Shown: piece by piece, positions 1-8,444 of the stretch
How the letters are laid out: every line of letters starts with the position of its first letter
Position numbering within the stretch: the first letter of the stretch is position 1
NCBI RefSeq assembly: GCF_900113225.1
Contig: NZ_FOZE01000002.1
Coordinates: 1,240,001 to 1,304,000 of the forward strand
Direction of reading: 5' to 3'
Origin: Mitsuaria sp. PDC51
GTDB lineage: Bacteria; Pseudomonadota; Gammaproteobacteria; Burkholderiales; Burkholderiaceae_C
Length of the DNA: 64,000 nt
Notes under the pieces: model-generated
What the model was told of the DNA's origin: nothing
Database searches by the model: none
Seen by the model: only the letters and a program-made list of their open reading frames with translations
Program-made: the position numbers and the translations under genes

Positions 1-1
1 A

Positions 2-487
2 CTGACCGACCCCAAGGGTCGCCAGGGCTACGACGCGCATGTCGGCGAACGCGGCGTGAAGCTGTCCGGCGGCCAGCGCCAGCGGATCGCGATCGCGCGG
101 GTGATGCTGAAGGACGCGCCGATCCTGCTGCTCGACGAGGCGACCAGCGCGCTGGACTCGGAGGTCGAATCGGCGATCCAGCGCAGCCTGTACCGGCTGA
201 TGGAAGGCAAGACGGTGGTGGCGATCGCGCACCGGCTGTCGACCATCGCGGCCATGGACCGGCTGATCGTGATGGACCAGGGCCGCATCGTCGAGCAGGG
301 CGACCATGCGTCGCTGCTGGCGCAGGGCGGCCTGTACGCCAAGCTGTGGGCGCATCAGAGCGGCGGCTTCCTGGTCGAGGACGGCCTGGACGAGGACGGC
401 CAGGGCGATGCGAAGCGCCGGCCCGCTGGCGGCCAGGCGCGCGAGGACGCCGACGACCGCGACGTCGTGCATGACGAGGCGGAATGA
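2..487 (+). CDS. Exporter-type ABC transporter ATP-binding protein, C-terminal part (5' truncated by window edge)
   Basis: Only the last part of the nucleotide-binding domain is present; the gene starts left of the window. The frame opens directly at the edge and reads into the ABC signature LSGGQRQR, a Walker B block [12 protein letters not shown] and an H-loop AHRLST, so this half of the ATPase is intact. The LDEATSALD and AHRLS wording is typical of exporters of the MsbA/multidrug type, where this domain follows a six-helix membrane domain on the same chain. The last 45 residues or so are an acidic, Arg-rich tail with no recognisable fold. Substrate cannot be inferred. No terminator is obvious after the stop. 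Confidence 0.85.
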
Positions 488-793
488 CGACGGATGCCGG
501 CAGCGGGCGCTGTCGCTCGAACAGGGCGGGCGGCATGGCGCGTTCGGCTCAAGGCGCGGAGGCGCTTGCGCACCACGCCGGCGATGATTCGTTTGGCCTC
601 AATGGATTCACCGAAAGCCCGCGCTAACTTATCCATCGTCGGAGGGACGCCGCACGCCACCCGTTCAAGGGGTTGGTCGGGGTTTCCGGTCGGTGCCTTG
701 TATGAAACACTGCGGTCGCAGGTCGGACGGGAGCGCCGATCCGCTTGAGCGTCCGCCCCTTCCTGGGGCCCGTGCACCACGAAAGCTGAGCTT
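488..793. other. 306-bp intergenic region, no gene seen
   Basis: This gap separates the ABC gene from the Tat-signal gene of the HprK-related cassette, so the cassette promoter should lie here. I find no open frame with a recognisable product, no RNA gene and no convincing promoter boxes. The stretch just before the next start is only moderately purine-rich and has no strong Shine-Dalgarno. Confidence 0.4.
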
Positions 794-1468
794 ATGGACA
801 ACAGCAGCGACACCCACCAGCAGCCCTCGGCCACCCCGGCAACCGCCGCGGGCACCGTCGTCTCGCAGCGCCGCCGTCGTTTCATCCAGGCGGGCGTGGT
901 GCCAGTGGGCCTGACGCTGGCCAGCCGGCCGGCGATGGCCTGGCACTGCAACACCACCTCGGCCTGGGGCTCGGCGATCCTGCGCAACGGCGGCGCCAGC
1001 GTGCAGGCCCGCGCCGATGCCGCGGTGATCAACAACACCGAGTGCTGGTACATCGCCAACTGGAAGGACAACACCGGCCGGTCCCTGGTGCGCGGCGGCA
1101 ACGCCCCCTGGAACTACGTGATCGCCCAGTGGTATTCCGGCAAGTCGCTCACCTACGCGCGCAACAACCTGACCGTGGCCAAGCTGTTCCCGGCCGGGTT
1201 GAAGAACGTCAGCGGCACCGCCAATGTCTACAACCTGCTGAAGAACGACTCGGCGGGCTACGGCACGATGATGATCGTCGCGCGTCTGAACACCCTGTTC
1301 GCCGGCAACAAGGTCAACCAGTGCGTGCTCTCGGCCACCGGCCAGGACATGCTGCTGCAGATGGCCTCGCAGGGCCCCGGCATCTTCAAGCCGGCCAACT
1401 CCACCGGCGCGGCCTGGACGCAGGCCGACTTCAAGAACTACCTGTACAGCAACTGGCTCGTGGCCTGA
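794..1468 (+). CDS. Tat-exported protein of unknown function, first gene of the HprK-related cassette
   Basis: A 224-residue protein with a twin-arginine signal: SQRRRRFIQAG at residues 24-34, a hydrophobic stretch, and a likely cleavage after SRPAMA (residue 49) giving a mature N-terminus WHC. The mature part is about 175 residues, rich in Asn, Ser, Trp and Tyr, with cysteines near positions 52 and 84 and another near 180, and no transmembrane helix. I do not recognise the fold. Its stop overlaps the ATG of the PqqD-like gene (TGATG), so the two are translationally coupled. Tat export implies it folds, or binds a cofactor or is modified, in the cytoplasm. Position first in a kinase/PqqD/nucleotidyltransferase cassette makes it a candidate substrate; that is inference only. 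Confidence 0.75.
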   Translation: MDNSSDTHQQPSATPATAAGTVVSQRRRRFIQAGVVPVGLTLASRPAMAWHCNTTSAWGSAILRNGGASVQARADAAVINNTECWYIANWKDNTGRSLVRGGNAPWNYVIAQWYSGKSLTYARNNLTVAKLFPAGLKNVSGTANVYNLLKNDSAGYGTMMIVARLNTLFAGNKVNQCVLSATGQDMLLQMASQGPGIFKPANSTGAAWTQADFKNYLYSNWLVA

Positions 1469-1785
1469 TGGCCGGAGCCGCCTGGCACTGCAGGCCCTCG
1501 CTCAACGACGTGCTGCTCGCCTGGGAGGGCGAACAGCACGCGGTCTATTTCGACCCTGACACCGGGGACACCCACCTGATCGCCGCGCTCGGCGCGCAGC
1601 TGGCCGAATGGCTGGCCGCCGGGCCGCTGGACCGCGACCAGCTGCTGCAACGCCTGGCCCGCGACATCGACTGGGACGAGCCGCCCACGCCCGAGGCGTT
1701 GGCCGAGCTGCTGGACCTGCACCTGCGCCGGCTGGCCGAGATCCACCTGCTGGCCGAAGGCCCGGTGGAGGAGCCGGCCGCTTGA
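1468..1785 (+). CDS. PqqD-like protein of an HprK-related (HPr-rel-A type) system
   Basis: A 105-residue protein with the layout of PqqD-type peptide chaperones. An N-terminal beta-rich part (AVYFDPDTGDTHLIAALG, about residues 24-41) corresponds to the block where PqqD family members show a value that is present or absent, and a C-terminal helical part follows with repeated LLDLHLRRLAE-type helices. PqqD proteins deliver ribosomal peptides to modifying enzymes in PQQ and RiPP pathways. Small PqqD relatives sit beside HprK-related kinases in many Proteobacteria. The gene overlaps its upstream neighbour by one base, and its stop codon overlaps the TTG start of the kinase, so all three are probably made in fixed ratio. 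Its partner peptide or protein is not known. Confidence 0.7.
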   Translation: MAGAAWHCRPSLNDVLLAWEGEQHAVYFDPDTGDTHLIAALGAQLAEWLAAGPLDRDQLLQRLARDIDWDEPPTPEALAELLDLHLRRLAEIHLLAEGPVEEPAA

Positions 1786-2696
1786 GACTGCAGGACGTCG
1801 GCACCGCCGGGCTGCGGGCCCGGATGCGCGACGGCGGCGTGACGCTGCGGCTGTCGCCGTTCACCGTGCGCGTGCGCTCCGACATCCCACACCTGGCCGC
1901 CGACGTGGCGACCATGTACCGCGACTTCGAAGTCGCCGGCGATGACGAATTCGTCGACTTCCACGTCGCCGTGCTGCGCAGTCCCCACTGGCTGAGCCGG
2001 CTGCAGGGCCGGGCCGAATTCTGGTTCGACGGCCAGCGCTCCTTCACGCCGCTGCCCGCCGCGCAGGCGCTGGCGATGCTGGAGTGGGGCATCAACTGGT
2101 GCATCGCCGCCCATGCCCACCAGTACCTGCTGATCCATGCGGCGGTGCTGGAGCGCGGCGGCCGCGCGCTGCTGATGCCGGCGCCGCCGGGTTCCGGCAA
2201 GAGCACCCTGTGCGCGGCGCTGGCGCATCGCGGCTGGCGGCTGCTGTCGGACGAACTGGGGCTGCTGGACATGAGCACCGGCCTGGTCCACGGCATGGCG
2301 CGGCCGATCAACCTGAAGAACGCCTCGATCCCGTTGATCCGCGCCTTCGCGCCGGAGGCGGTGTTCAGCGCCTCCATGCCCAACACCGCCAAGGGCACGG
2401 TCGCGCTGGTGCGGGCGCCGCAGGACGCGATCGACGCACGGCTCGCGCCGGCCCGCCCGGCCTGGGTCGTGCTGCCCGCGTGGCGCGCCGACGCGGCCGC
2501 GCAGCTCGTCCCGGTGGAGCGCGCCCGCGCCTTCATGGACCTGGCGGAGCAGTCCTTCAACTACGACGTCCACGGCCTGGCCGGCTTCCAGGCACTGGGG
2601 AGACTGGCCGACAGCTGCGGCTGCCATCGCTTCGAGTACAGCCGGCTCGACGAGGCCCTGGCCTGCTTCGACGCGCTCGAGGAGTCCGCGCCATGA
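1782..2696 (+). CDS. HprK-related kinase A (HPr-rel-A type)
   Basis: A 304-residue protein resembling the catalytic half of HPr kinase/phosphorylase. The P-loop PAPPGSGKST lies at about residues 134-142, and a second nucleotide-site block LLSDELGLLD begins near residue 154, matching the acidic motif after the P-loop in HprK. There is no N-terminal HprK sensor domain. I start it at TTG 1782, not at in-frame codons inside the PqqD gene, because GGAGGAG sits about 9 nt upstream and the TTGA overlap matches the coupling seen along the cassette. Members of this family are known by association with PqqD and nucleotidyltransferase genes; their substrate is unsettled. HprK-like kinases in some lasso-peptide clusters phosphorylate a peptide, so a protein or peptide Ser/Thr target is plausible here. 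Confidence 0.8.
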   Translation: MRLQDVGTAGLRARMRDGGVTLRLSPFTVRVRSDIPHLAADVATMYRDFEVAGDDEFVDFHVAVLRSPHWLSRLQGRAEFWFDGQRSFTPLPAAQALAMLEWGINWCIAAHAHQYLLIHAAVLERGGRALLMPAPPGSGKSTLCAALAHRGWRLLSDELGLLDMSTGLVHGMARPINLKNASIPLIRAFAPEAVFSASMPNTAKGTVALVRAPQDAIDARLAPARPAWVVLPAWRADAAAQLVPVERARAFMDLAEQSFNYDVHGLAGFQALGRLADSCGCHRFEYSRLDEALACFDALEESAP

Positions 2697-3814
2697 GCGC
2701 CCGGCGCGACGATCGCCGCCGCCCGCTGCTCATCCGCGTGCTGCTGCAGCCCGCGGTCGCGGCCGGCTTGAGCCTGACCGAGTGGGACCTGCTGCTGCGA
2801 CAGGCGCGGCGCTCCAACCTGGCCGGCCGGCTGGCCGAGCAGATGGAAACCGGCGGCTGGCTGGACACGCTGCCGCTGCCCGTGCAGCCCCACCTGCGCT
2901 CGGCGCTGCTGCTGTCGCGGCGGCAGGTGCAGATGCTGCGGCGCGAGGTCGAACTGCTGCGGCAGACGCTGGCCGAGCTGCCTGGCCCGCTGATCCTGCT
3001 CAAGGGCGCCGCCTATGCGCTGGGCGGGCATGCGCCCGCACCGGGCCGGCTGTTCAGCGACATCGACCTGCTGATCCCGCCCGAGCAGCTGCCGCGCTGC
3101 GAGACGACGCTGCTGGTGCACGGCTGGGATTTCGACGACGGCCTGGACGCCTACGACCAGCGCTACTACCGCGAGTGGATGCACGAGCTGCCGCCGCTGC
3201 ACCACAAGCGCCGCGGCACCTCGCTGGACGTGCACCACACGCTGCTGCCGCCGACGGCGCGAACGCCGCTGGACAGCCGCGCGCTGTTCGACGCGCCGCG
3301 CCCGCTGCCCGGGCTCGCTGGCGTCTTCGTGCTGCCGCCGGAAGACATGCTGCTGCACAGCGCCGCGCACCTGTTCCACGAGGGCGAACTGCCCAACGGG
3401 CTGCGCGACCTGTTCGATCTCGATGCGCTGCTGCGCGAGTTCGGCGCGATCGAGGGCTTCTGGCCGCGGCTGGCGGCACGCGCGCGGCGCATCGGCCTGA
3501 CGCGGCCGCTGTGGCTGGCGCTGCGCTACACGCGGCAGCTGCTGGACACGCCTTACCCGGACACGCTGCTGGATGAACTGGAGCCGCCGCCGGGACCGCT
3601 GGCGCTGCGGTTGCTGGATGCCTGTTACCGGCGCCTGCTGCGGCCGGGCCATGACAGCTGCCGCCTGCCGGGCCATGCGATGGCGGAGGTCGCGTTGTAT
3701 GTGCGCTCGCACTGGCTGCGCATGCCGGCCGGGCTGTTGGCGCGGCATCTGGCGCGCAAGGCATGGTCGCGGATGACAACTGCCCCCGAAGTGCCCAAGG
3801 TCGAGACGCCTTAG
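2693..3814 (+). CDS. Nucleotidyltransferase-family protein of the HprK-related cassette
   Basis: A 373-residue protein with a nucleotidyltransferase core. LILLKGAAYALGG (about residues 101-113) is followed by RLFSDIDLLIP, whose two aspartates (about D123 and D125) are the expected metal ligands; HLF and DLFDLDALL segments downstream fit the helical part of the NTP_transf_5 group. The ATG overlaps the kinase stop (ATGA), completing a four-gene translationally coupled run. Such proteins recur next to HprK-related kinases and PqqD proteins and also in some lasso-peptide clusters with kinase homologues, which suggests it adds a nucleotide to the phosphorylated product or a sugar. The precise reaction is unknown. 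The C-terminal 60 residues are Arg-rich. Confidence 0.75.
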   Translation: MSARRDDRRRPLLIRVLLQPAVAAGLSLTEWDLLLRQARRSNLAGRLAEQMETGGWLDTLPLPVQPHLRSALLLSRRQVQMLRREVELLRQTLAELPGPLILLKGAAYALGGHAPAPGRLFSDIDLLIPPEQLPRCETTLLVHGWDFDDGLDAYDQRYYREWMHELPPLHHKRRGTSLDVHHTLLPPTARTPLDSRALFDAPRPLPGLAGVFVLPPEDMLLHSAAHLFHEGELPNGLRDLFDLDALLREFGAIEGFWPRLAARARRIGLTRPLWLALRYTRQLLDTPYPDTLLDELEPPPGPLALRLLDACYRRLLRPGHDSCRLPGHAMAEVALYVRSHWLRMPAGLLARHLARKAWSRMTTAPEVPKVETP

Positions 3815-3829
3815 GCCTTCGAAGACCCC

Positions 3830-3872
3830 CCTCACCCCTCCCTCTCCCCCTGAAGGGGGCGAGGGGGAACAT
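3830..3872. repeat. C-rich/G-rich inverted repeat after the HprK-related cassette
   Basis: A run of CCCCTCACCCCTCCC followed by CCCTCTCCCCCTGAAGGGGG and GCGAGGGGG can fold into a long GC-only hairpin with a tight GA loop. It lies just after the nucleotidyltransferase stop and before pssA. The wording resembles the larger repeat at 27543-27700, so it is probably a copy of an intergenic palindromic element family that may also end transcription. No T-tract follows. Confidence 0.55.
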
Positions 3873-3936
3873 GCCGCCCGGGGGCGGGCGCGGCCTTTGC
3901 CGCGAGGCCAAGGGCCTTCGCTTATGCTCGCTCCCC

Positions 3937-4554
3937 ATGAACCGACCCAAGCCTTTCTCCATGATCCGCGAGTTCCATCTGGCGGACTGGTTCACCCTGG
4001 GCAACGCCTTCTGCGGCGTGGGCGCCCTGTTCTCGGTGATGACCTTCCTGCAGACCGGGCTGACGCAGCACCTGTACTACGCCTGCGCGCTGATCCCGGC
4101 CGCGCTGGTCTTCGACGTGCTGGACGGCCGCATCGCGCGCTGGCGCCAGAAGAGCTCCGCGATGGGGCGTGAACTGGACTCGCTGGCCGACGTGATCTCC
4201 TTCGGCGTCGCCCCGGCCGTGATCGCCTATGGCTGTGGCATGCAGGGCCTGTGGGACCGCATCGTGCTGGGCTTCTTCGTGGCCAGCGGCGTGTCGCGCC
4301 TGGCGCGCTACAACATCACCGCCGAAAGCCTGTCCGCGGGCAGCGACAAGGTTGCCTACTTCGAGGGCACGCCCATCCCCACGTCGTTGCTGCTGGTGAT
4401 CGTGCTGTGGATTGCCGCCTGGCAGGGCGCGATCGGCGACGCGTTGTGGTTCGGCGCCATCAAGCTGGGCGGCTTCACCCTGCATCCGCTGGTGCTGCTG
4501 TTCGCGGTCTCCGGCTCGCTGATGATCAGCCGCATCCGCATCCCGAAGCTGTGA
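3937..4554 (+). CDS. pssA: CDP-diacylglycerol--serine O-phosphatidyltransferase
   Basis: A 205-residue polytopic membrane protein that makes phosphatidylserine from CDP-diacylglycerol and serine, the precursor of phosphatidylethanolamine. It carries the full CDP-alcohol phosphatidyltransferase signature D-G-x2-A-R-x8-G-x3-D-x3-D, beginning at DGRIAR and ending at LDSLAD. About five hydrophobic helices follow or flank it. Length and motif spacing fit the small, integral class II PssA. The ATG at 3937 is chosen; a second ATG (MIREFHLADW) eight codons later is also possible. It is a single gene here with its own terminator-like hairpin downstream. The family also contains phosphatidylcholine synthases and phosphatidylglycerophosphate synthases, but the N-terminal context favours PssA. 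Confidence 0.85.
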   Translation: MNRPKPFSMIREFHLADWFTLGNAFCGVGALFSVMTFLQTGLTQHLYYACALIPAALVFDVLDGRIARWRQKSSAMGRELDSLADVISFGVAPAVIAYGCGMQGLWDRIVLGFFVASGVSRLARYNITAESLSAGSDKVAYFEGTPIPTSLLLVIVLWIAAWQGAIGDALWFGAIKLGGFTLHPLVLLFAVSGSLMISRIRIPKL

Positions 4555-4610
4555 GCTGGCGCTGAGCGCCGACGCGCTTGGACGTGCGTCCAGCGCTGGG
4601 CCCGATGACG

Positions 4611-4641
4611 ACAAAGGCCGCCCGAGGGCGGCCTTTTGTCA
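4611..4641. terminator. Bidirectional rho-independent terminator between pssA and the S41 protease gene
   Basis: GACAAAGGCCGCC and GGCGGCCTTTTGTC form a 13-bp stem with a CGAG loop and one bulged base. T-rich flanks occur on both strands, so it can serve pssA (plus) and the convergent protease gene (minus). Confidence 0.75.
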
Positions 4642-4750
4642 TGGCGCTCGCGCGTGGGACATCGACGGCGAATCAGGACGGGCCCGGCGGGAGGCCGAAT
4701 CGGAATGGGCGCCCCTGTGCTGCGCCCCAACGCGCCGCCTCAGGGCCGCC

Positions 4751-6397
4751 TCAGGGCCGCCCGCCCAGGATGCGGTTGCTGCGCGCGGCCAGCTTCTTGA
4801 ACTGCAGCGCCACGGCATCCTCGCCGCCGGCGCGCGTCGCCGTCGCGCGTGCCAGGCCCGTGCCGGAGGCGCTCGCCGCCGGGCAGCTGCCGTTGGCGCG
4901 GTATTGCAGCGCCGCGGCCAGCATCGCCTCGTTGGCGTCACCCAGCGCGTGCTCGAAGTCGTCCGCCACCGCGCAGCCCTTCACGCCGGTGGCGCCGCTG
5001 CCCGCGGGCACGAAGCCGTCCGCGTAGTCGCCGAAGCCCTTGTTGTTGACGCCAACGAATTCGATCGGGAAGTAGCTGTAGCCGCAGTTGTCCTTGGCCG
5101 TGAAGCCATAGGGCTTGCCGCAGGTGGTGCCGCCCACCAGCACGACCTCCACGTCCACGCCGCGCAGGCTGTTGATCAGCGCCTCGCTGGCCGAGCAGGT
5201 GCCCGACTGCGCCAGCACGAACACGCGCCGCAGGTTCAGCGCCGGCAGCGGCTGCCGCGAGCTGCAACGGCCGTCCGCCGTCATCAGGCAGGACTGGTCG
5301 TAGAACGGCGTCTTCGAACCCTCGCTGTTGGTCTCCGCGCTGCGGCGGCTGTTGTAGCGCAGGTGCTCGAAGGTCTTGCCGGAAGTCGCCGCGCTGCCCG
5401 CGATCATGTAGGCCAGCTCGCTGGCGATGAACAGGTAGCCGCCGCCGTTGTAGCGGAGGTCGACGATCAGGTCGGACACCCCCTGGCCGCGGAAGTCCTG
5501 CATCGCGGCGATCAGCTGCGCTTCCGCCGGAAGGATGTGGTCGTTGAAAACCAGGTAACCGACCTTGCCGCCATCGGCCGCGGTCAGCACCTGCCGGGTC
5601 GGCACCGGCGTCTTGGTGACGTTGGCGGCGACCAGCGTGAGGTCGCGGCTCACGCCGGAATTGGCGGTCAGCACGAAGCGGTGGCTCGCGCCGGCGGTGT
5701 CGGGGAACAACGCGCCGTTGAGGGTCTTGACGCCCGCCGCGTCGTTGACATCGGCCGCCGCGCCGTCGGCGCTCACCAGCGTGTCGCCGCGGCGCACGCC
5801 GGCGCGATCGGCGGCGCTGCCCGGTTCGACGAACGCGACGCGCAGGCCGCGCGGCGGCGTCGCCGACTTCATCCGCCATTCGATCCCGTAGCCGAGCTCG
5901 ACGCCGCCCTGCGACAGCGCGTTCCACTCGCGGGTGCTCATCATGAAGCTGAACTGGTCCTTGCGTTTGCCGCTGGCGGTGGTCGCCGGCGAGCGCAGGT
6001 CGTCGAAGTAGTTGTCCAGCGCGGTCTCGACATCGCTGCCGCTGTAGCGCGGGGCCGAGGCATCGATCGACGGCACGTCCTCGCGCCACAGGTAGGCCTC
6101 GTCGAAGTAGGCGCGGATCCAGTTCTTCTCGGTCGCCAGCGAGCCGCTGCGCTGACTGGCCTCCGGGTTGCCCGGCGCGCATTGCTGGGCGTAGGCGGCG
6201 CTGGGCTGGAGCACCGCGCCGGTGTTGCCGCCGTTGCCCGTGCCACCGCCACCGACGGTGCCGCCACCGGTCTCGCCGCTGCCCACCACCGGCGTGCCGC
6301 TGCTTCCCCCACCGCCGCCGCATGCGCTCAGCAGCATCGCCCCGACGGCGCCAGCCACGGCCAGGCGCGTCACCCGCCACATCGCGGATCGATTCAT
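4751..6397 (-). CDS. S41-family (C-terminal processing type) peptidase lipoprotein with PDZ domain
   Basis: A 548-residue protein with a lipoprotein signal (MLLSAC lipobox near residue 27) and a Gly/Ser/Thr-rich linker, so it should be anchored at the outer membrane. A PDZ domain is visible at roughly residues 185-260 (RGLRVAFVEPGSAADRAGV). The S41 catalytic core follows, with VDLRYNGGGYL for oxyanion support and GTCSASE around residue 402 holding the nucleophilic serine; GGTTCGKPYGF supplies the candidate lysine. Such proteases degrade misfolded or tagged envelope proteins. The frame stays open far upstream, but the ATG at 6397 is the only start that places the lipobox correctly. Ser/Cys-rich segments near the active site (QSCLMTADGRC) suggest disulfides. 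The target is unknown. Confidence 0.85.
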   Translation of the reverse strand: MNRSAMWRVTRLAVAGAVGAMLLSACGGGGGSSGTPVVGSGETGGGTVGGGGTGNGGNTGAVLQPSAAYAQQCAPGNPEASQRSGSLATEKNWIRAYFDEAYLWREDVPSIDASAPRYSGSDVETALDNYFDDLRSPATTASGKRKDQFSFMMSTREWNALSQGGVELGYGIEWRMKSATPPRGLRVAFVEPGSAADRAGVRRGDTLVSADGAAADVNDAAGVKTLNGALFPDTAGASHRFVLTANSGVSRDLTLVAANVTKTPVPTRQVLTAADGGKVGYLVFNDHILPAEAQLIAAMQDFRGQGVSDLIVDLRYNGGGYLFIASELAYMIAGSAATSGKTFEHLRYNSRRSAETNSEGSKTPFYDQSCLMTADGRCSSRQPLPALNLRRVFVLAQSGTCSASEALINSLRGVDVEVVLVGGTTCGKPYGFTAKDNCGYSYFPIEFVGVNNKGFGDYADGFVPAGSGATGVKGCAVADDFEHALGDANEAMLAAALQYRANGSCPAASASGTGLARATATRAGGEDAVALQFKKLAARSNRILGGRP

Positions 6398-6992: not shown

Positions 6993-8444
6993 ATGGACGC
7001 GCCGCTGCTACCGCTGTATATGCAACTCGCCGACCGCATGGCCCGGTCGATCCGGGCGGGCACGCTGAAACGCGGCGAGCGGCTGCCCTCGGTGCGGGAG
7101 CTGGCCGGCCAGCACGGCGTGTCGCTGTCGACGGCGGTGCAGGCCTACCGCTGGCTGGAGGATGCCCGGCTGATCGAGGCCCGGCCGCGCTCCGGCTACT
7201 TCGTCGCCGCGCGGCCGCCGCGCCTGCCGGAGCCGCGGGTCTCCCGGCCCGACACCGCCTCGCGCATGGTGCAGCTGGACCAGCTCGGCGTGCAGGTGAT
7301 GGCGCTGTCGCAGGATCCCGGCTTCATCTCCTTCGGCGCCGCCTGCCCGGGTCCGGAACTCTTCGACCAGGACCGCGTGCGGCGCGCGATGGCCCGCGCC
7401 GTGATGCGCCATCGCGAGCTGCTGTGCACCTACCCGATCGGCCCCGGCATGGAGGAGGCCCGACGCGCGGTGGCCCGCCATGCGCTCGGGCTGGGCTGCG
7501 TGCTGGACCCGGACGAGGTGGTCATCACCAACAGCTGCATCGAGGCGATCAGCCTGTGCCTGCGCGCCGTCTGCAAGCCCGGCGACGTGGTGGCGCTGGA
7601 ATCGCCGACCTATTACGGCTTCCTGGAGATCCTGCAGAGCCTGCACCTGCGCGCGCTGGAGATCCCGACGCATCCGCGTCACGGCATGTCGCTGGACGCG
7701 CTGCAGCTGGCCTTCGAGACGCAGCAGGTCAAGGCCGTGCTGACGGTGCCGACGCTGTCCAACCCGCTGGGCGCCTGCCTGCCGGTGCCCGAGCGGCGGC
7801 GCCTGGCCGCGATGCTGGCGCGGCACGACGTCGCGCTGATCGAGGACGTGCTCTACAACGACCTGTCCGAGCAGGAGGACAAGCGCCGCGCGGTGAAGTC
7901 CTTCGACACGACCGGGCACGTGATGATCTGCGGCTCCTTCTCGAAGACGATCGCGCCGGGGCTGCGGCTGGGCTGGGTCGAGGCGGGCCGCTGGGGCCGG
8001 GTGTTGCGGCAGACCAAGGCGGTGCAGTCGGGCGCGCAGACCAGCGTGCTGGAGCTGGCGCTGGCCGACCTGCTGACGCAGGCCGGCAGCGGCGCGGCGC
8101 TGCGGCATCTGCGCGCGACCATCGCCGCCCGCGTCGACGAGGCGCGCCAGCTGATCGCCGAGAGCTTCCCCAAGGGCACGCGGGTGTCGGACCCCGCGGG
8201 CGGCTTCATCCTGTGGGTGGAACTGCCGGAGGCGCTCGACTCGGCGCAGCTCTATGAAGCGTGCCTGGCCGAGCACATCGTCATCGCGCCGGGGATGATG
8301 TTCTCGGCGAGCCCGCGCTTCCGGAACTGCGTGCGGCTGGGCGTCGGCGGCAAGTGGGGCCCCGAGCATCCGCGCGCGCTGCGCCGCATCGGCGCGCTGG
8401 CCAAGCAGCTGCTGATGAGCCCGCCGGACGAGCTGGCCGCGTAG
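6993..8444 (+). CDS. MocR-type (GntR-HTH plus aminotransferase-like) transcriptional regulator
   Basis: A 483-residue two-domain regulator. Residues 1-75 form a GntR winged helix (LPSVRELAGQHGVSLSTAVQ and LIEARPRSGYFVA). From about residue 110 it is a fold-type I aminotransferase-like domain with the PLP lysine in SFSKTIAPGLRLGW and the expected NPLG segment. Proteins of this class bind PLP and control amino-acid, vitamin B6 or GABA metabolism rather than transaminating. The divergent neighbour is a DUF2917 gene, which it may regulate from the 150-bp gap. No typical pdxST or gabT target is in the window, so the effector pathway cannot be named. Confidence 0.85.
   Translation: MDAPLLPLYMQLADRMARSIRAGTLKRGERLPSVRELAGQHGVSLSTAVQAYRWLEDARLIEARPRSGYFVAARPPRLPEPRVSRPDTASRMVQLDQLGVQVMALSQDPGFISFGAACPGPELFDQDRVRRAMARAVMRHRELLCTYPIGPGMEEARRAVARHALGLGCVLDPDEVVITNSCIEAISLCLRAVCKPGDVVALESPTYYGFLEILQSLHLRALEIPTHPRHGMSLDALQLAFETQQVKAVLTVPTLSNPLGACLPVPERRRLAAMLARHDVALIEDVLYNDLSEQEDKRRAVKSFDTTGHVMICGSFSKTIAPGLRLGWVEAGRWGRVLRQTKAVQSGAQTSVLELALADLLTQAGSGAALRHLRATIAARVDEARQLIAESFPKGTRVSDPAGGFILWVELPEALDSAQLYEACLAEHIVIAPGMMFSASPRFRNCVRLGVGGKWGPEHPRALRRIGALAKQLLMSPPDELAA

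Follow-up and report, generated by a model that had tools for sequence, protein, structure and literature searches.

The cassette described here occupies positions 794 to 3814 on the forward strand of a window (the whole analysed stretch, 64,000 nucleotides) from Mitsuaria sp. PDC51. Its features are presented in Table 1. Four genes follow one another with successive overlaps of 1, 4 and 4 bases, and encode a protein with a signal of twin-arginine translocation (Tat) type, here called TatX, a PqqD-like protein, a kinase related to HPr kinase and a nucleotidyltransferase-fold enzyme. The kinase scores 391 bits against the HprK_rel_A model TIGR04352 (cut-off 200) and the PqqD-like protein 44.8 bits against the PqqD_rel_X model TIGR04353 (cut-off 35), and both pass these curated thresholds. 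The fourth protein scores 189.6 bits against NTP_transf_5 (PF14907), which has a gathering cut-off of 31.2. The kinase and PqqD genes lie side by side, as is required of an HPr-rel-A system, and by the curated models the cassette is assigned to that system. An earlier note on this DNA had claimed the order and coupling of the four genes, a kinase with an intact P-loop and a nucleotidyltransferase with a DxD motif, and the coordinates, scores and conserved residues reported here agree with it. Its PqqD-like carrier is retained as a family but not as a carrier, the NCBIfam name of TIGR04353 being HPr-rel-A system PqqD family peptide chaperone. The nearest named relatives of the kinase among the matches listed are those of Mitsuaria chitosanitabida (85% identity) and a Rubrivivax metagenome-assembled genome (MAG; 77%).

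Table 1. Features of the cassette in window coordinates; the last two rows refer to related loci.
Feature	Position	Strand	Remarks
TatX, putative substrate, Tat-type orphan	794..1468	+	224 aa; no Pfam/NCBIfam family; relatives adjoin kinase
Predicted Tat signal peptide, residues 1-49 (RRRRFIQAG ... LTLASRPAMA)	794..940	+	R27/R28 and RRx[FLMIVWY] in 78/78
C52-x3-S56-x3-S60 segment past predicted cleavage site, proposed modification site	947..973	+	conservation
S56 codon	959-961	+	
S60 codon	971-973	+	
PqqD_rel_X (TIGR04353), peptide chaperone/recognition protein	1468..1785	+	1-base overlap with TatX
HprK_rel_A (TIGR04352), HPr-kinase-like P-loop kinase	1782..2696	+	TTG start; 4-base overlap with PqqD
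Kinase active-site residues H119, P-loop 137-142 with K140, D157-E158	2136..2255	+	alignment, 1jb1
NTP_transf_5 (PF14907) nucleotidyltransferase-fold enzyme	2693..3814	+	4-base overlap with kinase; DxD at 3059-3067
TPR-sulfotransferase (PF13469), locus L150	L150:2-1495	-	directly behind kinase
TPR-sulfotransferase (PF13469), locus L164	L164:2310-3845	+	directly behind kinase

The N-terminus of TatX carries the twin-arginine signal QRRRRFIQAGVVPVGLTLASRPAMA. The signal reads QRRRRFIQAG...ASRPAMA, with WHC after the predicted cleavage site, and the features of a Tat substrate, namely the twin-arginine motif, the hydrophobic stretch and the cleavage site, are all present. The motif RRx[FLMIVWY] was found in all members of an alignment of 78 TatX proteins (A2), in which the mean column identity is 14%. 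Export by the Tat pathway is nevertheless a motif-based reading, because the curated Tat models miss the window protein and nearly all of the 60 aligned members compared with them. No NCBIfam family matched the window protein at E values up to 10, and the single Pfam match (E 0.18) was far under the cut-off of that family. When the 78 aligned proteins were compared with the families at E ≤ 0.01, three families appeared, with one member each. The description of the protein as a Tat-exported orphan thus stands as regards the missing family and the signal motif, but is not shared by the curated Tat models.

The only invariant columns of A2 (78/78) are R27, R28 and S56, the last being the seventh residue of the predicted mature protein. 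The invariance of S56 is limited to A2, because in 36 further TatX proteins from the family of the host this position is Ser in 30, Thr in four, Leu in one (L054) and a gap in one (L050); L032 is misaligned in this set and by eye reads CNTTSAWGS. S60 is kept in 73/78 and is Ser in 31 of the same 36 proteins. Other conserved positions of A2 are C52 (77/78), L165 (73/78), C84 (69/78) and N166 (68/78), and at the end of the signal T41 (63/78), L42 and S44 (67/78 each), R45 (47/78) and P46 (58/78). Among the TatX proteins, 37/78 have an Arg-Pro pair ahead of the likely cleavage site; the host genome has 12 Tat signals above the cut-off, and by eye such a pair is absent from all of them. Of 113 proteins, 97 have the pattern C-x(2,3)-[ST]-x3-S past the signal, where shuffling leads one to expect 11.6, and six of the 16 proteins without it are of the type CK-x-PSGF-x-x-SGN. 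The earlier note had placed the target of the kinase on the orphan, and the conserved Ser would be an obvious candidate.

It is also conceivable that TatX is modified on a conserved Cys (C52 or C84) or another side chain, and that S56 is kept for folding. The conservation of the two Cys residues speaks for this, as does the occurrence of a Cys near the Ser in all three types of passenger described below. However, their conservation could be explained simply by a disulfide that joins them once the protein is exported, and the HPr-kinase-like enzymes of lasso peptides phosphorylate Ser (PMC9266682; here and below, statements from this review and from PMC9850573 refer to the excerpts available). 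This explanation is considered quite unlikely.

In AlphaFold2 models of two TatX proteins (of the window and of L102), the mature domain is largely helical, and its prediction is good from approximately residue 81 onwards. The segment with the conserved Ser is of medium confidence in the window model (block mean 77). The candidate site lies in a short segment after the signal, and the idea that TatX is folded prior to modification, put forward in the earlier note, finds no support. Comparison of the TatX profile with solved structures gave a best E value of 0.022, which is unconvincing, and fold searches of the PDB with both models and of viral models with the window model returned nothing below E 0.001.

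The active-site residues of the two enzymes are retained. In the kinase, the P-loop GSGKST (residues 137-142) is conserved, and H119, K140, D157 and E158 are invariant among 23 aligned kinases. The best solved relative of the kinase profile is HPr kinase/phosphorylase (PDB 1jb1, E = 1.9e-4), whose His, P-loop and acidic pair align with H119, K140 and D157-E158. The transferase has a conserved D123-x-D125 motif and a third Asp, D179; the counts are 71/71 rows for K104 and D125 and 70/71 for D123 and D179. Profile searches of solved structures with the nucleotidyltransferase and with PqqD gave no match. The nucleotidyltransferase was considered as an obligatory part of the cassette, and this was rejected, since it was not found in 12 of the 27 phylum-level loci. 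In three such loci that were scanned, the gene behind the kinase encodes a TPR-sulfotransferase (PF13469) in two (L150 and L164) and TPR repeats only, within the fetched stretch, in the third (L142).

The association of TatX with the kinase was followed through four sets of loci: 40 loci of the host family, among them that of the window (L010) as well as L007 and L028, each of which duplicates a named locus; the named loci, which are the best 80 of 344 related loci from GTDB genomes; 27 phylum-level loci; and 20 more distant ones. In nearly every kinase locus read, a Tat-type protein lies upstream of PqqD, despite barely matching sequences. The named loci were read directly from the DNA, without a profile, and have the Tat-type protein directly upstream in 78 cases, downstream in one (L113) and not at all in one (L125). 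Locus L014 was a candidate for a cassette without TatX; this was rejected, as its TatX sits downstream (row L055). In the profile census, TatX was found in 40/40 host-family, 79/80 named, 23/27 phylum-level and 9/20 more distant loci, the count for the named loci being circular in large part, since 77 of these 80 loci, together with the window, went into the profile. The corresponding counts are 38/40, 78/80, 23/27 and 13/20 for PqqD, and 40/40, 80/80, 15/27 and 20/20 for the nucleotidyltransferase. A loose Tat detector flagged 59 of 583 conserved neighbour genes (102 when inner starts were allowed), compared with 77/77 TatX proteins.

Searches were also run in the opposite direction, from TatX to the kinase. 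The kinase is above the cut-off in 37 of 150 host-family genomes. The window TatX as a single sequence matched 14 of the 150 at E 0.01, seven of them strongly, the window's own genome included, and all seven strong matches adjoin the kinase. At E ≤ 1e-6 the TatX profile matches in the 150 genomes are adjacent to the kinase, except for four in two large frames and one in G067:C17 (E 8.9e-7; L196), whose surroundings were not read. The two large frames, of 1295 and 2208 residues, contain repeats of a TPGFWKNH-type domain, a relative of the one in TatX, and have no kinase hit nearby (L194, G052:C63:1-6000; L195, G011:C8:272000-280889); in the printed stretches of these two cases there is no SGxxSGN segment. 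A TatX domain unique to the cassette was therefore rejected. The window TatX and a consensus-like relative were also searched against 72,556 plasmids, and neither found a match.

Kinase loci with TatX span beta-, gamma- and some alpha-labelled records in varied surroundings. The cassette keeps TatX as its partner well outside the genus, and the distant loci are less regular. The earlier note had proposed a survey of relatives, with absence of the orphan from the cassette as the outcome that would count against it. The opposite was found (79/80 named and 40/40 host-family loci). The same figures, and the range of records and surroundings, speak against the possibility that the genes are mere neighbours without a functional relation. 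The little sequence that TatX proteins have in common and the few kinase loci without TatX agree with such a possibility, but the locus readings and the census make it very unlikely.

Several arrangements of the cassette were observed in addition. In L077 (a Thiobacillus MAG), a second kinase lies upstream of tatX at 4703-5815 and scores 415 bits, slightly more than the main kinase with 412. On account of this higher-scoring frame the census counted the TatX of L077 as downstream, but it precedes the kinase at 8001. A tandem pair of tatX-like stretches precedes one cassette in G052:C22:65240-66558 (L197 and L023). Two above-cut-off kinase loci each occur in G144:C31 (L016, L046), G116 (L032, L047) and G084 (L019, L051), and every locus of these pairs has its own, differing Tat-type protein.

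The passenger behind the signal is not always the same. Two atypical passengers were found in L088, where it is short, and in L050. A second type is present in nine of ten distant loci of one genome family (L174-L182; none was seen in L184). It has the motif RPA-x-AQ and S-x3-C right past the signal, invariant in the eight aligned proteins and present in L182 by reading; eight of the nine were missed by the TatX profile and only L177 was matched. Proteins annotated as hypothetical represent the second type on a Sphingomonas plasmid and the first type, TatX itself, on a Vibrio plasmid. In L183, from a different family, a Tat-like signal precedes a differing passenger. A third type, recognized by eye in phylum-level loci, reads LQSGAALA(A) or similar at the end of the signal, followed by a Ser near the first Cys. 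The passengers vary and the signal, the Ser and a Cys close to it are retained, which is what action of the cassette on this region would lead one to expect. This pattern is suggestive only, because Ser is common in such stretches.

The genomes with the kinase are largely those with the exosortase XrtA. XrtA is above the cut-off in 39 of the 150 host-family genomes and in 35 of the 37 with the kinase (Fisher p = 2.7e-27, n = 150, relatedness ignored; the value is optimistic because related genomes are not independent). The exceptions are G040 (74% complete) and G067, with the kinase only, and G004, G043, G078 and G142, with XrtA only. Neighbour clusters of the XrtA/PEP-CTERM system lie within the fetched flank of many named loci, at least one in 44/80 and at least two in 28/80. 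These clusters were formed by single linkage and each was named from one representative. Seven were counted (PrsR, PrsT, export, chain length, tyrosine kinase, ATPase and outer membrane protein) and the protease cluster was left out. In the window itself, the cassette is flanked by an ABC transporter upstream and a CDP-alcohol phosphatidyltransferase downstream. The latter gene is at 3937-4554, and a related gene stands behind the cassette in 6/80 named loci (cluster 31). An Rfam scan of window positions 1-6000 gave no match. The XrtA/PEP-CTERM link, the near-constant Ser and the replacement of the nucleotidyltransferase by sulfotransferase genes in some lineages are additions to the earlier note.

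The strong link to exopolysaccharide genes could also mean that the three enzymes have a different target, for instance a glycan, some small peptide or a lipid from which the exopolysaccharide is made, and that outside the cell TatX acts on the product or carries it. This would be in keeping with a transferase from an uncharacterised nucleotidyltransferase family, and with L125 and L185, where the kinase and the transferase occur without TatX. However, TatX belongs to no enzyme family, and varied passengers with a kept signal and N-terminal Ser are more easily understood in a substrate than in an enzyme; the PqqD family, in addition, is named as a peptide chaperone. Such a role is unlikely, though the most probable of the alternatives.

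A promoter of sigma-54 type (score ≥ 13) was found ahead of tatX in 35 of 76 loci from the range L059-L138. The controls were random windows, the reverse strand, which gave four such promoters, and shuffled sequences, which gave 1.9. In Aquincola, an RpoN-dependent PEP-CTERM gene, pepA, is involved in floc formation (PMC9850573). These promoters, and the relation of the kinase to the bifunctional HPr kinase/phosphorylase, would fit a regulatory role, in which the kinase and the transferase reversibly control the export of TatX or a sigma-54/exopolysaccharide switch, and no permanent group is exported. However, the match to HPr kinase covers only 61 profile positions around the P-loop, and one substrate encoded beside three enzymes looks like biosynthesis. 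This role is regarded as improbable.

The near-constant Ser just past the signal and the recurring pairing of the genes suggest that TatX receives a chemical group while still inside the cell. It is proposed, with a probability of about 0.57, that the cassette is dedicated to the maturation of a single exported protein. PqqD-type recognition domains bind leader peptides and present them to enzymes. The PqqD-like protein would accordingly bind TatX in its N-terminal part, in all likelihood at the Tat signal, and present it to the enzymes of the cassette. The HPr-kinase-like enzyme would then phosphorylate the near-constant Ser/Thr, that is S56 and perhaps S60, seven to eleven residues past the predicted cleavage site. 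The NTP_transf_5 enzyme may put a second group, a hexose or a nucleotide, on the phosphate, and in some other lineages the product of the TPR-sulfotransferase gene could take its place. The finished TatX would be exported by the Tat pathway, as its signal indicates, and removal of the signal would leave the modified residue near the new N-terminus. The product would work together with the XrtA/PEP-CTERM exopolysaccharide system, with which the genes are associated, probably as a protein of the matrix. A more specific version of this proposal is tentative and somewhat less probable than an even chance. In it the Tat signal doubles as the leader recognized by PqqD, and a phosphate-linked group is placed on the N-terminal Ser of full-size proteins with exchangeable passengers that enter the XrtA-linked matrix; the placing enzymes, held with the same reserve, would be the kinase together with a nucleotidyl- or hexosyltransferase or a sulfotransferase.

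A number of observations weigh against the proposed maturation of TatX. The mechanism is read from genes and sequences, and the leader role of the signal from its conservation; the conserved S56 could be structural, and its departures from Ser in the host family were given above. The Tat models TIGR01409 and PF10518 do not recognize the window TatX, which is also missing from their whole-genome matches, and of 60 aligned members compared with them a single one matched, at E 0.11. In the genome of the window, the cassette and xrtA are on different contigs, and the best sigma-54 match ahead of the window tatX is weak, with a score of 11. Neither TatX nor PqqD was found in L125 and L185, which may be remnants or have a different organisation. 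L184 has PqqD and no Tat protein seen upstream. No TatX lies within the 1.5 kb flanks of L155, L156 and L162, the last at a contig edge, and in L153 the Tat-type protein is on the opposite strand. The PqqD profile has no match in L051, L054, L132 and L186-L191, and some of the 12 phylum-level loci without a nucleotidyltransferase are cut by a contig end. The phylum-level matches to the TatX profile are mostly weak (E 1e-11 to 5e-4) with a differing passenger, and this third type of passenger has no S-x3-S segment like that of S56 and S60.

It is important to compare the cassette with systems already described. The window kinase and PqqD are above the curated cut-offs of the HPr-rel-A system, and the genes occur together in most relatives. 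The names of that system imply a peptide target; however, none is given in the annotations seen, and the exported partner has no model. In a limited literature collection, nothing was found on the HPr-rel-A system or its exported partner, nor anything joining HprK with PqqD, a nucleotidyltransferase and a lasso peptide, or joining an exosortase with HPr kinase. The works pairing PqqD and HPr kinase concern lasso peptides, and none, in the parts available, includes a Tat signal. HPr kinase/phosphorylase (1jb1) has the His, the P-loop and the acidic pair in aligned positions. It differs in that only those 61 profile positions align, that Glu replaces the second Asp, and that the N-terminal part of the kinase is unaligned.

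Another close parallel is the tailoring of lasso peptides. In these systems the B1 protein is a recognition protein of the PqqD type. Their tailoring kinases act on the precursor through a His-Lys-Asp-Asp motif and place a phosphate on a conserved C-terminal Ser (PMC9266682). As in PadeK, ThcoK, SyanK and PsmK, with PsmN, a kinase and an annotated nucleotidyltransferase are found by the gene of a substrate with a conserved Ser. PsmN is needed to add hexoses to the phosphorylated Ser, and an explanation by a host enzyme is also possible (PMC9266682). The nucleotidylation of TatX suggested in the earlier note is without support, the one described case found being linked to a hexose on phospho-Ser, and export in modified form, also suggested there, is likewise a proposal. 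There are also clear differences. The substrate of the cassette would be an exported protein of about 175 residues with a signal of Tat type, while the lasso substrate is a short peptide; the Ser of TatX is near the mature N-terminus and the lasso Ser is C-terminal; and the window kinase has H-K-D-E in place of the motif given in the review. No lasso B2 protease or C cyclase is among the genes identified around the window, the flanks of relatives not having been searched for these. Most likely, the cassette works in the manner of lasso-peptide kinase tailoring, and as far as tested it is not a lasso cluster.

The XrtA/PEP-CTERM sorting system (PMC1569441) occurs in the same genomes (35/37) and often in the same gene cluster, and promoters of sigma-54 type are common to the cassette and to pepA of Aquincola (PMC9850573). 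In contrast to its sorted proteins, the window TatX has a Tat-type N-terminus and, by eye, no PEP-CTERM tail. The main text of Haft et al. 2006 (PMC1569441), searched by term, has no mention of HPr, PqqD or nucleotidyltransferase. The present analysis puts forward a substrate, with a single candidate residue, for enzymes that NCBI already treats by name as a system that includes a peptide chaperone, and the target is therefore testable by mass measurement. If the proposal is true, tailoring in the style of ribosomally synthesised and post-translationally modified peptides (RiPPs) extends to full-size Tat-exported proteins across many Proteobacteria. Tat export would acquire a further use, the transport of proteins that were modified beforehand in the cytoplasm, and bacteria that form flocs and biofilms would have an unrecognised protein arm in their XrtA/PEP-CTERM exopolysaccharide system.

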